DNA of 41,186 nucleotides from Candidatus Gastranaerophilales bacterium (GTDB lineage: Bacteria; Cyanobacteriota; Vampirovibrionia; Gastranaerophilales; Gastranaerophilaceae), in contig CALVEB010000017.1 in assembly GCA_944326465.1 (NCBI GenBank), positions 1 through 41,186 of the forward strand, read 5' to 3'. The translations under genes were made by a program, and so were the position numbers. Below the pieces are notes generated by a model that saw only the letters and a list, made by a program, of their open reading frames with translations, made no database searches and was not told the origin of the DNA. This document shows positions 1 through 41,101 of the stretch, piece by piece (position 1 is the stretch's first letter; the number at the start of each line of letters is the position of its first letter).

Positions 1-2
1 GC

Positions 3-191
3 AACCTAAAAGTAAAGGACGAATACAAAGATAATCCTCCACTCTCTCTTGGCCGCGTCTACTGGTCCAGTGAGGAGAGCGGTGCGCGTAACGCGTACTG
101 CCGGGTCTTCTACACTTCCGGCACGGTCGGCTATGACGGTTACTGGGACTCCAAGGACAGCGGCTTCCGCGCTATATGTGTGTCGAACTAA
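3..191 (+). CDS. C-terminal fragment of a YWSS/GFR-type protein, probable DGR target
   Basis: The reading frame is open from the window edge to TAA at 189-191 and gives 62 residues; the start lies outside the window. The end carries YWSS, a Ser/Tyr/Gly/Asp-rich stretch and a final GFRAICV. This resembles the C-terminus of DUF1566/FGE-like C-type-lectin folds, which often serve as ligand-binding surfaces. Composition changes sharply inside the frame: the first ~16 codons are AT-rich like the rest of the window, whereas bases 51-170 are 77/120 G+C and 26 of the last 46 codons end in C. That pattern fits the variable region of a diversity-generating retroelement target, where AAC-type template codons become NNC. 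No reverse transcriptase or template repeat is in the window, so this is inferred. A GC-rich horizontally acquired domain is the alternative. Confidence 0.6.
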   Translation, partial: NLKVKDEYKDNPPLSLGRVYWSSEESGARNAYCRVFYTSGTVGYDGYWDSKDSGFRAICVSN

Positions 192-213
192 GAGGCTTGG
201 CCTCTTAGTTCGA
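183..213. repeat. Perfect 14-bp inverted repeat spanning the stop codon
   Basis: Arms 183-196 and 200-213 are exact reverse complements around a 3-base loop (TTG). The left arm contains the last codons and the stop of the partial gene. The nearest T-run (235-240) is about 20 bases further on, so this is not a standard intrinsic terminator. A hairpin just after the variable repeat is a known cis element for retrohoming in the Bordetella phage DGR, which is why it is noted with the neighbouring GC-rich codons. Confidence 0.75.
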
Positions 214-2219: not shown

Positions 2220-4082
2220 TTACTCCAATACTATCGCTCTGAACGGACAATTTGTCATGCAGGCTTCGCACTTAATACATTTTTCCTGATTAATTTTGTG
2301 CGGCTGCTTAACAACACCCTCAATCGCACCGACCGGACATGTTCTTGCACATTTCGTACATCCCTTACATAATTCCGGAACAATAACGATTTTCTTCATT
2401 GCAGCACAAACACCAGCCGGACATTTTTTGTCCTTGATGTGGGCAATATATTCATCTCTGAAATATTTTAGAGTTGAAAGTACAGGATTCGGAGCCGTTT
2501 TACCCAAACCGCAAAGAGATCCCTCTTTTACAGAATGCGCAAGCTCTTCCAGTAAATCCAAATCACTCATTTCGCCTTTGCCTGCAACGATTTTTTCAAG
2601 AATTTTTAACATATTCTTTGTACCTTCACGGCAAGGAACACATTTTCCGCAGCTTTCGTGCTGGGTAAAGTTCATGAAAAATCTTGCGACTTCAACAATA
2701 CAGGTATTTTCAGCCATAACAACAAGTCCGCCTGAACCGACCATTGCTCCGGCCTTAATCAAATTGTCGTAATCCATAGGGATATCAAGATGTTCTTCTG
2801 TCAAACATCCGCCGGAAGGCCCGCCGATTTGAACAGCTTTGAACTTCTTGCCGCCTCTGATACCGCCTCCGATATCAAATACGATTTCTCTTAAAGTTGT
2901 ACCCATCGGCACTTCTATAAGTCCGGTGTTGTTAACTTCGCCTGTAAGCGCAAAGGTTTTTGTACCTTTTGAAGTTTCTGTACCCATTGACGCAAACCAA
3001 TCTGCACCTTTTAACATAATTACAGGTACATTAGCGAGCGTTTCAACGTTGTTAATCAGTGTCGGACGGCCGAAAAGTCCTTTGTTTGCAGGAAATGGCG
3101 GTTTCGGACGCGGCATTCCGCGTTCACCTTCAATTGATGCTATAAGAGCAGTTTCTTCACCGCAGACAAATGCTCCGGCACCTTCTTTGATATGTAAAGT
3201 GAATGAAAAATCACTGCCCATTATATTTTTGCCTAAGAAATTTCTTTCTTCGGCATCGGCAATAGCTTTGCGCAAACGCTTGATTGCAAGCGGATATTCG
3301 GCACGAACATAAATGTAACCTTCATCTGCACCTATTGCAAAAGCGGCAATTGCCATACCTTCAAGAAGTTTATGCGGATCCCCCTCCATAATACTTCTGT
3401 CCATAAATGCACCCGGGTCGCCTTCGTCACCGTTACAAACAACATAAGATTTTCCGCCTCTGTTTGCAGCAGTAAATCTCCATTTTCTGCCTGTCGGGAA
3501 ACCTCCGCCGCCACGGCCGCGTAATCCTGATTTTTCTATTTCTGCAATAACTGCATCCGGATCATTGGCTTCTATAACATTTGCTAAAGCTTCATATCCT
3601 CTGACCGCAATTGCTTCATCTATACATTCTGCGTTGATGTGACCGCAGTTTGCAAGCGCTGTACGCGTTTGCTTTGCGTAGAAATTAATATCTTCACTTT
3701 TTCTGATATGTTCATGCGTTTTTGGATCCGTGTATAGAAGACGTTCCACTGGTTTGTCGTTTCTGATGTGGCTTTCATAAATCTCTTCAACATCAGATAC
3801 TTTTACTCTTACATAAGTAACGTCTTTGTCCGGAATAATAACAAGAACGCCCTGTTCGCAAAAACCGTGGCAGCCGGTCGGAACAATTGTCATCTTGTCA
3901 TAATCTGTCAGAATAGAGACATCAGCCCCGAGTTCTTTAAATTTTTCAATGACTTTTAAAGATCCGTTTGCCACACAGCCTGTTCCAGCGCACACAAGAA
4001 CACGTAATCCCTGTTTTTTAATTGCTTCCTGTGCTTTTTTTTGTTCTTCTTTTATATTAATATTCAAACTTGTTTTCTCCAT
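2220..4082 (-). CDS. hydB: NADH-binding NuoF-like hydrogenase subunit HydB
   Basis: A 620-residue flavoprotein subunit of the hydrogenase, handling NAD(P)H and passing electrons between FMN and Fe-S clusters. Order: an N-terminal thioredoxin-like 2Fe-2S domain (cysteines in CAGTGC and in the GCHGFC segment), the NuoF core with the glycine-rich NADH/FMN motif GRGGGGFPTGRKW and CNGDEGDPGA, an SLBB region, the NuoF 4Fe-4S motif CGKCVPCREG, and two C-terminal 4Fe-4S motifs (CKGCTKCARTC and CIKCEACMTNC). The C-terminal ferredoxin extension is typical of HydB of trimeric [FeFe] hydrogenases and absent from plain complex I NuoF. A strong GGAGG lies inside the end of hydC. One base separates the hydC stop from this ATG, so coupled translation is likely. 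Confidence 0.94.
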   Translation of the reverse strand: MEKTSLNINIKEEQKKAQEAIKKQGLRVLVCAGTGCVANGSLKVIEKFKELGADVSILTDYDKMTIVPTGCHGFCEQGVLVIIPDKDVTYVRVKVSDVEEIYESHIRNDKPVERLLYTDPKTHEHIRKSEDINFYAKQTRTALANCGHINAECIDEAIAVRGYEALANVIEANDPDAVIAEIEKSGLRGRGGGGFPTGRKWRFTAANRGGKSYVVCNGDEGDPGAFMDRSIMEGDPHKLLEGMAIAAFAIGADEGYIYVRAEYPLAIKRLRKAIADAEERNFLGKNIMGSDFSFTLHIKEGAGAFVCGEETALIASIEGERGMPRPKPPFPANKGLFGRPTLINNVETLANVPVIMLKGADWFASMGTETSKGTKTFALTGEVNNTGLIEVPMGTTLREIVFDIGGGIRGGKKFKAVQIGGPSGGCLTEEHLDIPMDYDNLIKAGAMVGSGGLVVMAENTCIVEVARFFMNFTQHESCGKCVPCREGTKNMLKILEKIVAGKGEMSDLDLLEELAHSVKEGSLCGLGKTAPNPVLSTLKYFRDEYIAHIKDKKCPAGVCAAMKKIVIVPELCKGCTKCARTCPVGAIEGVVKQPHKINQEKCIKCEACMTNCPFRAIVLE

Positions 4083-4083
4083 A

Positions 4084-4578
4084 TTAACGATCCTCCTTCA
4101 AAAGCGTATCCAGAACAATACTGATTGCATCGGATGTCATTTGCGGATAAACTTTGTCATTAATAACGACAACCGGTGCAAGCCCGCAGGCTCCAAGACA
4201 GCTTACTGTTTCCAGAGAGAACAAACCGTCTTCCGTTGTCATTGCGCCATCCTTTAATTCAAGTTTGTTTTTAATAGCATTTAATACCGGCATTGACCCT
4301 CTAACGTGGCAGGCTGTTCCGTCGCAGACTTTTATTTCGTATTTTCCTTTTGGTTCAAGGGAAAATTGTGCGTAAAATGTTGCGACGCCAAAAACAGTTG
4401 CCGGAGAAAGTCCTTCTATTTTTGTTCCGATATAAATCATTGCATCTTCAGGCAGGTATCTGTATACTTCCTGTACTTTTTGTAAAATCGCAATCAAGTT
4501 GGATTTTTTGTATTCGTAAGATTTCAAAATTTCATCCAGCTTAGATGTGTTGATTTTATGATGATTTTCTACAGTCAT
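4084..4578 (-). CDS. hydC: NuoE-like 2Fe-2S hydrogenase subunit HydC
   Basis: A 164-residue thioredoxin-fold 2Fe-2S protein of the NuoE/HydC family. The cluster cysteines are in CDGTACH and CLGACGLAP, preceded by the helical N-terminal domain usual for NuoE. It is the first gene of hydCBA and would relay electrons between HydB and HydA. A TTG two codons upstream is in frame, but AGGAG would abut it with no spacing. The ATG at 4578 has AGGAG six bases upstream and is chosen. Upstream lies a 10-bp inverted repeat that may be the operator of the cluster. Confidence 0.92.
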   Translation of the reverse strand: MTVENHHKINTSKLDEILKSYEYKKSNLIAILQKVQEVYRYLPEDAMIYIGTKIEGLSPATVFGVATFYAQFSLEPKGKYEIKVCDGTACHVRGSMPVLNAIKNKLELKDGAMTTEDGLFSLETVSCLGACGLAPVVVINDKVYPQMTSDAISIVLDTLLKEDR

Positions 4579-5932: not shown

Positions 5933-6941
5933 CTAACAATTCCTTCACATCTATGACAGTTTTCAATTTCAATGCATAAATATTATCATAATCAAACGCC
6001 TGTAGTTTTACCGCGTCTTTTTCTGTCACGACAATATTGCCGCTAATATTTTTAATGTCATCTTCAATATATTGATGATGATCGTCCAGCGCGATCTTAG
6101 CTTTAAGATTATAATTTTTCAAAAATGCAAAAAACTGTTCAGGCTGGCCGATTGCGCACAGTGCTGTAATCCCGGCATCCGGCGGTAATTTTTCGCCTGT
6201 CTTGACATTATATACAAAATCAGGTTCGGTTTTGCATACAAATGTTTGCAGATTGAGTTTTTTCCCCATAATTTTAGCGAGTTTTTCAGCACGTTTATGG
6301 TCTGTATTTTTGCTTACAATAACAAATTTATCTATACGTTGAAAAGCTTCATTACCTTCTCTGAGAGGCCCTGCCGGAAGAAGATTTTCATTACCGAAAC
6401 CTTTTTCACTATCCATAAGAACTATATCTAAATCGCGGTGCAATTTTCTGTGTTGAAAGCCGTCATCAAGGATTATGTGCGTAGCAGCGAATTTTTTAAC
6501 AGCATATTCAGCGCCTTTAAATCTGTTTTTTGTTGTTATAACAATGGATTTAGTATTTTCAGCCAGCCAGTAAGGTTCATCGCCGGCCATTTTGGCATTG
6601 TGATAAATTTTTTCACCGTCGGAAATTATATTTATATTTTTGTTGGAAAGCCCGCCGCCATACCCGCGCGAAACTATAGCCGGCTTTTGGCCGATTGATG
6701 CCAAATATTTTGCTATTTCTGCAACAACGGGTGTTTTGCCGACGCCGCCGGTTGTAACATTCCCGACAGATATTACATAAGCCTGAACTCTTTTAGGTTT
6801 TAGAATATTTTTGTCATAAAGCAGATTTTTTAACCCGCTGCCAAGTCCGTAAAATACCGAACAAAATTCCAGCAGCTTAAATAAAGCACCTTTTGCTTCT
6901 TTATTATAATGAATTTCCGTTATTTTAGTTTTTAATTCCAT
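5925..6941 (-). CDS. lpxK: Tetraacyldisaccharide 4'-kinase LpxK
   Basis: A 338-residue inner-membrane-associated kinase that phosphorylates the lipid A disaccharide precursor at the 4' position. The P-loop is unusual in form but typical of the family (GNVTTGGVGKTP, about 58-69). DDGFQHRKLHRDLDIVLMD is the LpxK signature. The N-terminal region has the amphipathic segment expected at the membrane surface. Its presence means the organism makes lipid A, so it has a true outer membrane. It lies 17 bases downstream of the MCE-domain gene and overlaps nth, suggesting one transcript. Confidence 0.93.
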   Translation of the reverse strand: MELKTKITEIHYNKEAKGALFKLLEFCSVFYGLGSGLKNLLYDKNILKPKRVQAYVISVGNVTTGGVGKTPVVAEIAKYLASIGQKPAIVSRGYGGGLSNKNINIISDGEKIYHNAKMAGDEPYWLAENTKSIVITTKNRFKGAEYAVKKFAATHIILDDGFQHRKLHRDLDIVLMDSEKGFGNENLLPAGPLREGNEAFQRIDKFVIVSKNTDHKRAEKLAKIMGKKLNLQTFVCKTEPDFVYNVKTGEKLPPDAGITALCAIGQPEQFFAFLKNYNLKAKIALDDHHQYIEDDIKNISGNIVVTEKDAVKLQAFDYDNIYALKLKTVIDVKELLGE

Positions 6942-6958
6942 TGTTTTTTCCGAGAAAA

Positions 6959-8320
6959 TCAGAACATTAATCTGAACAGCAGGAAGCGTTTATTCAGTTT
7001 TTCTGAGAATTTTCTTAAATTAGATGTTGTTTCAGATGTATCATCAATAATTTTTTCCAGTTCGGATTTGTTTTCAGGAGTAAGCTTGTTAACCGCCGCA
7101 AGCGTTCTTGATATATCACACATCGCGTTGTTGATATTGTTTACAGCTCTTGTCAAATCTTTTTTCAACTGCTCGTCTTTAGTCAAAGAATTAACATAAG
7201 CACTTATTTCATTAACATTATGCGTAATTGCTCTCAAATCTTGAGCCATTTGTTCGGCTTCTTCGTCATTACCGATAATTTTATTCAAATTATTTGCAAG
7301 CTGTTCCACTGAATCCGCGGTTGAATAAATTGTTGTTTTGAATTGCGGATCACCGATTATACTGTTAACATTTTCTGATATTGTATGGAAATCCTGCGTT
7401 GCCTGATCCATCATAGCCATCATGTTTTCGATATCGGTTTTAGATGAATCAATAAGCTCATTGAGTTTTGTCATAGTATCGCTTGTCTGAGCAGTCAGAC
7501 TGTTGATATTTGTGACAGACATCTTTAATTCTGCTATGACTTCATCTGATAATAGATCGTTAATCTTCTGGTTTGTTTCTGTAAGAGATTCTGCTGCCTT
7601 GTACTGCCAATCCATGAAATCTGCTATTCTCATCGGTTCTACAATTGTATATGGAGAAGATTGTTTAGGATAAGGCAAGACAACATCATCCAGTGTCGAA
7701 ATTCGTAATTTATAAGTACCGTCCTCTTTTACGGCACGGCCTTTCAAAAATTCCGGAAGGATTAACCCCGGCAGATCTACTATATAATTAATTTTATAAG
7801 CGTAATTTGTTTTAATGGTTTCTTTAATATTATAAGGAACAACGTCGTGAGAAACGACTTCTATATTTGTAATTTTACCAACATTATAGTACTTATCGCC
7901 GAGTTTCATTTGCACATCGTCATCTTTATAAAGGATATTAGCATTTTTCATCGGAACGTAGATAGTTCTGTTTTTAGGCGGAGTAATTTCTAAAAACAAT
8001 TCGCCAATAAGCCCTGATTGCTGAATAGAGAACATTGAAGCTTTCGGGATAGAAATATGCGGTTCTGTGATTACAAATTTCACGTTAACATGGCTGTTTA
8101 CCCCGTCTAATACAGGTTGTATTTCTTCGACCTGCCCTACACGTATTCCCATCATCTGAACGCCGGCACCGGGGCGCATTCCGTTCACATCCTTGAATTG
8201 AACTTCAATACGCTTTGCGGAAGAAAAAGCACGGCCTTTGACTTTGAATACTATCCCGACCAGCAAAATTATTGCTATGAGAGTTAAAAGACCAACCTTA
8301 AATGATGACGAAAATTTCAT
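6959..8320 (-). CDS. MCE/MlaD-family lipid-transport substrate-binding protein
   Basis: A 453-residue protein anchored by one N-terminal membrane helix (FKVGLLTLIAIILLVGIVFKV), followed by a single MCE domain (IEVQFKDVNGMRPGAGVQMMGIRVGQVEEI) and a long C-terminal half rich in heptad-like helices. This is the architecture of MlaD and cyanobacterial/plastid TGD2, which carry phospholipids between membranes with an MlaE permease and MlaF ATPase. Neither partner is in the window. An in-frame upstream ATG exists, but AAGGAAAGGA precedes the ATG at 8320 at a good distance and a promoter lies just upstream, so the shorter form is used. mlaD-like, lpxK and nth are closely spaced. Confidence 0.88.
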   Translation of the reverse strand: MKFSSSFKVGLLTLIAIILLVGIVFKVKGRAFSSAKRIEVQFKDVNGMRPGAGVQMMGIRVGQVEEIQPVLDGVNSHVNVKFVITEPHISIPKASMFSIQQSGLIGELFLEITPPKNRTIYVPMKNANILYKDDDVQMKLGDKYYNVGKITNIEVVSHDVVPYNIKETIKTNYAYKINYIVDLPGLILPEFLKGRAVKEDGTYKLRISTLDDVVLPYPKQSSPYTIVEPMRIADFMDWQYKAAESLTETNQKINDLLSDEVIAELKMSVTNINSLTAQTSDTMTKLNELIDSSKTDIENMMAMMDQATQDFHTISENVNSIIGDPQFKTTIYSTADSVEQLANNLNKIIGNDEEAEQMAQDLRAITHNVNEISAYVNSLTKDEQLKKDLTRAVNNINNAMCDISRTLAAVNKLTPENKSELEKIIDDTSETTSNLRKFSEKLNKRFLLFRLMF

Positions 8321-41049: not shown

Positions 41050-41101
41050 TACAAAGAAAGGGACTGGCTAAAGCCAGTCCCTTTCTTTGTATGCATTTTT
41101 T
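41050..41101 (+). terminator. Long perfect hairpin terminator after tRNA-Asn
   Basis: Arms 41050-41069 and 41072-41091 are perfect reverse complements of 20 bases (19 realistic pairs with a 4-base loop). Six T follow after TGCA. Unusually long for an intrinsic terminator. Beyond it, 41102-41186 shows no gene or structure I can support. Confidence 0.85.

Follow-up and report, generated by a model that had tools for sequence, protein, structure and literature searches.

Adenine-specific variation in dispersed prepilin-like genes of a Gastranaerophilales genome points to a diversity-generating retroelement with scattered parts

Comparison of one contig end with the rest of its genome has revealed a diversity-generating retroelement (DGR) whose components lie on separate contigs. 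Positions 47-179 of the contig very likely constitute a DGR variable repeat (VR) in the gene of a prepilin-like target, and positions 183-213 the hairpin of the target site, in a scheme where a template, TR1, and a solo reverse transcriptase (RT) would rewrite the repeat. The stretch analysed, hereafter the window, spans 41,186 nucleotides and is the entire contig C17 of the focal genome (G000), a Gastranaerophilales (Melainabacteria) MAG of 2.07 Mb in 52 contigs, 99.7% complete. The evidence comprises the template, VRs that vary specifically at adenines, Avd genes, a DGR-type RT, the prepilin motif, covariation in the hairpin, and the counterpart of one target locus in another bin with a different template-perfect VR. 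The system is a DGR by every defining sequence test; what is unusual here is the size of the repertoire and the scattered layout of the parts.

The window opens inside the target gene. The 3' end of this gene, which encodes a type IV prepilin-like protein, comprises its last 62 codons and lies at 3-191 on the plus strand in a frame open to the contig start; because the contig begins inside the gene, the 5' part is missing. The frame translates to NLKVKDEYKDNPPLSLGRVYWSSEESGARNAYCRVFYTSGTVGYDGYWDSKDSGFRAICVSN before the stop codon, with GFR-AI-CV in the C-terminus SGFRAICVSN. A conserved AT-rich coding stretch at 3-46 on the plus strand, directly 5' of the VR and beyond the homology to the template, contains NLKVKDEYKDNPPL, which is common to the paralogs and absent at the TR locus. 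The VR follows at 47-179 on the same strand, as delimited by alignment to TR1. G+C content is 38% at 1-50, 64.2% at 51-170, and 34.8% at 171-400, with 36.7% for the window overall, and 26 of the 46 codons at the end of the frame end in C. The G+C jump at 51-170 (64%), the codon count, a GFR-x-x-CV ending, and a perfect 14-bp hairpin at 183-213 had been given in a preliminary description made from the sequence alone, which read them as a possible DGR variable region with a C-lectin-type target. Every figure was reproduced on recomputation and the reading held, since a template in the same genome, substitutions at template adenines, and a DGR-type RT were all found; the split cassette, the size of the target family, and the prepilin-like nature of the targets lay beyond that description's view. 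Paralogs of the gene are dispersed through the genome; there are about 33, and 19 are full length and carry the prepilin leader motif. About 33 further copies of the 213-base block occur in the genome, at 71-86% identity on about 25 contigs, nearly all of them with the hairpin, and the block is therefore not a product of chance.

The preliminary description had proposed a search of the genome for a template repeat, and this search was successful. TR1, itself one of the copies of the block, lies at 10073-10208 of contig C12, outside any pilin gene, and is rich in AAC. The excess of substitutions expected at template adenines was also present. In the alignment of the window VR to TR1, from TACTGG through GCTATATGT, 26 of 47 adenines but none of 73 C, G, or T positions are mismatched, with one 3-nt deletion (p = 8e-14). 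Pooled over the 33 VRs assigned to TR1, mismatches fall on 673 of 1584 adenines versus 155 of 2403 other bases (p = 6e-168). Thirteen of the 33 VRs have no non-adenine mismatch at all, and in the best 14, with at most one each, the counts are 291/682 versus 1/1034. This confinement of mismatches to adenines is the signature of a DGR. About 17 of the 33 VRs have four or more non-adenine mismatches; these could be older, inactive, or derived from an earlier template. The 49 adenines of TR1 occupy first (24) and second (24) codon positions, with a single one in the third.

The hairpin at 183-213 has a perfect 14-bp stem and a 3-nt loop, overlaps the last codons and the stop of the target gene, and is a probable retrohoming element. 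Folded as DNA, it reaches -15.1 kcal/mol (z = -9.6; 0/200 shuffles as good), and only three other perfect inverted repeats of at least 12 bp with loops of 3-8 are present in the 41-kb window. The same hairpin was found in 30 of the 33 VRs by automatic matching and in a thirty-first (L038) by eye; in the two without it (L025, L037) the 3' end of the template follows instead. Among 21 distinct forms, 96.8% of cells are paired, three pairs are changed on both sides, and 14 cells carry double changes, a covariation score reached by 0/500 shuffles. Because each cell represents a sequence rather than an evolutionary event, the independent changes number fewer than 14. The hairpin is conserved as a structure through compensatory changes, and its interpretation as a DGR trait was upheld. 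Stems measure 12-14 bp, and loops of 3-5 nt, among them TTG, ATA, TCT, and CAGAA, vary in both length and sequence without following the GRNA rule. In the hairpin of BPP-1, the structure of the stem matters but not its sequence, and the loop must be GRNA (PMC3240598). A role of 183-213 as transcription terminator was considered and rejected; the terminator-like stem-loop, detected on both strands by a terminator scan, is a separate one, at 271-297, downstream of the target gene. The opposite end of the contig (40990-41091) contains an apparent minus-strand tRNA gene, recognized by appearance without a tRNA finder, and, at 41050-41091, a perfect hairpin of 19 bp.

At the candidate 3' initiation sequences (IMH in VRs, IMH* in the template), the shared GCTATATGT is followed in TR1 by CTCGGGAG and in most VRs by GTGTCGAAC or similar; two VRs keep the TR form, and no GC-rich run like that of BPP-1 was seen. 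L025 (C8) and L037 (C41) represent a second class of VR 3' ends, in which the template's CTCGGGAG or a close variant is kept and the common hairpin is absent. In L025, the match to TR1 extends to the end with zero non-adenine mismatches. The same template-like, hairpin-less class was observed in another genome, G097, at L212, L213, L231, L236, L239, L241, and L243.

The machinery is distributed over several contigs. At the TR1 locus on C12, a gene for a 123-aa protein comes after the template, followed by what we take to be tpiA, and a gene that we take to be thiamine-synthesis-like comes before it, both neighbours named by reading the sequences. The 123-aa protein, Avd1, matches the Pfam bAvd model with 49.1 bits (cut-off 40) and the PHROG Avd family at 1.5e-22; the NCBIfam Avd model gave 56 bits, under its cut-off of 80, and Avd alone gave no significant match in the PDB. 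A second module, on C19, comprises a target gene, Avd2 (PHROG Avd at about 1e-22), and a second template, TR2, in the usual order. Both templates are contig-internal, with other genes on either side and no RT. Three VRs belong to TR2; those on C19 and C22 differ from it nearly only at adenines, and the third, on C11, is older.

Only two RTs were found in the genome, on C9 and C49, and only that of C9 is of DGR type. It carries the motifs IGNLTSQ and YVDD, the former being a DGR-specific form of its motif. Its closest solved structure is 8ub7 (6.8e-40; runner-up 1e-9), from a PDB series that we take to be the DGR RT of the Bordetella phage BPP-1. The preliminary description had suggested looking for the template beside a group II-like RT; a DGR-type RT is indeed present in the genome, but no template adjoins it. 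Neither TR nor Avd was found in its neighbourhood, and a genome-wide Avd search returned only the C12 and C19 genes. The single-cassette arrangement is thus not met: the RT is on C9, TR1-Avd1 on C12, and Avd2-TR2 on C19, the reading frames of the RT and of both Avds all being open. A joint cassette is common but not strictly defining, and incomplete DGR loci with inferred action in trans have already been described (PMC10907252). As both template modules lack an RT and the genome contains one DGR-type RT, the C9 enzyme probably serves TR1 and TR2 in trans. With the RT and the modules on different contigs, this action is inferred only, and a missing cassette is not excluded. The named relatives of the RT belong mostly to Gastranaerophilales (Candidatus Melainabacteria). 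Homologs with 50-65% identity in related genomes mostly lie beside Avd, often with TR and VR too. In some of the relatives, among them the one with the most similar RT (L092, 68%), the stretch examined likewise shows no Avd next to the RT, and a separated RT is therefore possibly not confined to the focal genome.

The 19 full-length targets measure 334-350 aa counted from (A/G)FTLAE(V/I)LITL, and the prepilin motif is present in all of them; 18 aligned targets share 71-88% identity with the first. PF07963 and TIGR02532 score at or above cut-off in the three targets scanned. The N-terminus of the window gene is missing, and its prepilin motif is inferred from the paralogs. By this motif, the targets are type IV prepilin-like proteins of about 345 aa. 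Genes for a prepilin peptidase and for secretion ATPases are present in the genome; assembly of the targets into surface pili is inferred, without localisation data. Between loci, the pilin bodies show high similarity and apparent recombination.

The C-terminal domain of the targets is predicted by modelling to adopt a C-type lectin fold, with the VR as its C-terminal end, and the C-lectin-type target of the preliminary description therefore held as a prediction. The C-terminal 222 aa of a paralog, modelled from a diverse alignment, reached a pLDDT of 81; a full-length model built on near-identical paralogs reached only 47. Structural re-alignment of the C-terminal model gave Z 10.6 with the C-terminal domain of Bdellovibrio Bd2740, 8.6 with that of Legionella Lcl, and 6-8 with many vertebrate C-type lectins. 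The lectin assignment rests on this re-alignment. A Foldseek search of the model against the PDB returned no significant E-value; a sequence-profile search of the PDB with the target family also gave nothing significant.

Several targets (L043, 2921-3182 on C29; L021, L023, L020, L022, L031, L039, L040, and L037) have extra sequence before the final FTLAEVLITL, and in a few another FTLAE-like motif occurs farther upstream, an arrangement that resembles in-frame insertion of repeat DNA into the leader. The GTGATTAAGTGATT repeat is present in these inserts as its reverse complement, and GTGATTAAGTGATT also follows many VR hairpins. Tandem targets of L028 (C30), at 3267-4280 and 6070-7083, encode the same predicted protein including the VR; a recent duplication or a duplicate made in assembly might account for them.

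Of 97 genomes in the family, 22 have homologs of the RT at E <= 1e-3, some of the matches being weak and incomplete. Among members of the genus, a complete cassette of its own is present in G017, and no RT or TR1 match was found in G053, G080, and G098. G097 of the same genus contains about 33 VRs of the same family with a similar hairpin, several of them near-identical to the common consensus outside the adenine sites. No RT, Avd, or TR was found in this assembly, which is 97% complete; the machinery may have been lost or left unassembled. Large VR sets can therefore persist without visible machinery. A contig binned in another genus, G090:C20 (L173), carries the focal C29 locus with about 99% identity over the first 1.1 kb. 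Past this point, it has a diverged pilin body and a different VR, in which all 74 non-adenine bases match TR1 and 22 of 49 adenines are changed. The simplest reading, and the likely one, is that of a mis-binned contig from another strain of the focal species, although horizontal transfer is not excluded. Under this reading, the C29 comparison likely records rewriting plus exchange between paralogs, which gives indirect support for retrohoming. A scan of viral contigs with the VR-frame pattern found nothing, so that collection gives no indication of a phage copy.

Two alternatives concern the present state of the system, and both are considered unlikely. In the first, the DGR is a fossil, with VRs that date from past activity and split machinery that is now defunct. 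The separation of the RT from TR and Avd, the many VRs with non-adenine changes, and the persistence in G097 of about 33 VRs with no machinery found speak in favour of it. Against it, 13 VRs equal the present TR1 at every non-adenine base, the frames of the RT and both Avds are open, and the C29 locus of the other bin has a different template-perfect VR. In the second, a complete RT-bearing cassette exists but was not assembled, and TR1 does not depend on the C9 RT. The assembly does break at VR genes, the window contig starting in one, and the RT adjoins Avd in most relatives. However, the genome is 99.7% complete, TR1 and TR2 are contig-internal and flanked by other genes without an RT, and only one DGR-type RT was found.

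It is very unlikely that the window VR arose during assembly as a chimera of paralogs at the contig end. The contig does start inside a repeated gene, as do several others, but a chimera of VRs would still consist of VRs, contig-internal VRs (e.g., L018, L020, L022, and L027) show the same adenine-only pattern, and unique sequence 3' of the hairpin ties the gene end to the window locus. A static family of paralogous adhesins (Lcl/FGE-like lectin pilins), in which ordinary mutation, selection, and gene conversion produced the diversity without any retroelement, is all but ruled out. It would fit the highly alike, apparently recombined pilin bodies and the related genomes with many lectin pilins and no RT, but not the confinement of mismatches to adenines of a non-genic template (291/682 versus 1/1034 in the 14 best VRs) or the presence of Avd and a DGR-type RT. 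Virtually excluded as well is the C49 RT (L012) as the DGR enzyme: its contig starts at a VR hairpin, but the protein is close to the anti-phage RT Drt2 (360 bits; cut-off 390), and no Avd or TR is present on the contig, where it adjoins what we take, from reading the sequences, to be a transposase-like gene and an AAA-type protein.

Among known systems, the BPP-1 DGR (PMC3240598) shares with the focal genome a TR, an adenine-specific VR at the 3' end of the target, Avd, a related RT, a C-type lectin target, and a hairpin just 3' of the VR whose stem structure is important. Unlike the focal genome, it is one compact phage cassette with one target, a hairpin stem of 7-10 bp, and a fixed GRNA loop; here the stems are 12-14 bp, the loops are variable (3-5 nt), the RT is apart from TR and Avd, and there are two TRs and about 36 VRs. 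In the Treponema denticola TvpA DGR (PMC4891356), one TR also feeds several dispersed genes for bacterial surface proteins with the C-type lectin fold, but 2-7 targets depend on one TR, RT and TR are together, and the targets are FGE-type and not prepilin-like. Thiohalocapsa PB-PSB1 (PMC10907252) likewise has multiple and incomplete loci, with action in trans inferred from VR matches to a distant TR; it differs in its nine loci, 15 targets, and 21 VRs, and in targets linked to NACHT/conflict systems. Trichodesmium erythraeum (PMC8867640), a cyanobacterial relative, has remote targets and 18 loci with TR/VR homology, but two DGR-RTs, each with two proximal target genes, and pilin targets were not described. 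The closest complete cassette examined, L093 of Gastranaerophilales (CALUVV010000002.1), has an RT 65% and an Avd 72% identical and an adjacent target with an N-terminal prepilin-like motif; in contrast, its RT, target, Avd, and TR form one locus, with a single VR found on that stretch.

DGRs themselves are known. The novelty would be one solo RT serving two template modules and about 36 VRs, a service in trans that is inferred. A Pseudomonas genome has been cited with 91 TR-VR pairs with few adenine changes, and putative pilin structures are mentioned among DGR targets (PMC6642488). The number of about 36 VRs exceeds any report found in the literature searched, in which no paper joined DGRs and Gastranaerophilales; the survey data of PMC8144416, outside this search, may include the genome or its relatives.

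In the proposed mechanism, the solo DGR RT of C9, together with its Avd partner, would copy TR1 RNA from C12 into cDNA and make errors at template adenines. Homology to the VR and the 3' hairpin would then direct this cDNA to any one of the dispersed paralogs, about 33 in number, where it would take the place of the resident VR. The outcome would be rewritten first and second codon positions in the presumed ligand-binding face of the C-type lectin domain that terminates a surface pilin. The second module, on C19 with its target, Avd2, and TR2, would probably use the same RT on three more VRs. Retrohoming, pilus assembly, and ligand binding, like the action of the RT in trans, remain inferences, for which there are no reads, expression data, or homing assay. 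A bolder reading, towards which the balance tilts only slightly, is a dispersed, antibody-like pilin repertoire. An orphan RT acting in trans on two template-Avd modules would diversify about 36 chromosomal VRs, 33 of them in near-identical pilin genes on one template, and the pilin bodies would be shuffled by gene conversion between paralogs, which would add another layer of variation.

The about 33 natural target sites on one TR provide a data set for the requirements of the 3' hairpin, because their loops vary while their stems covary. The target genes also suggest a reason why such MAGs break where they do, the window contig beginning inside one. If the proposed reading is true, DGR RTs would be able to act fully in trans and to serve more than one template. 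A DGR could then operate not as a cassette but as a genome-wide repertoire, in which a single template rewrites dozens of pilus-type lectins of a gut bacterium that has a 2-Mb genome and belongs to a mostly uncultured lineage.
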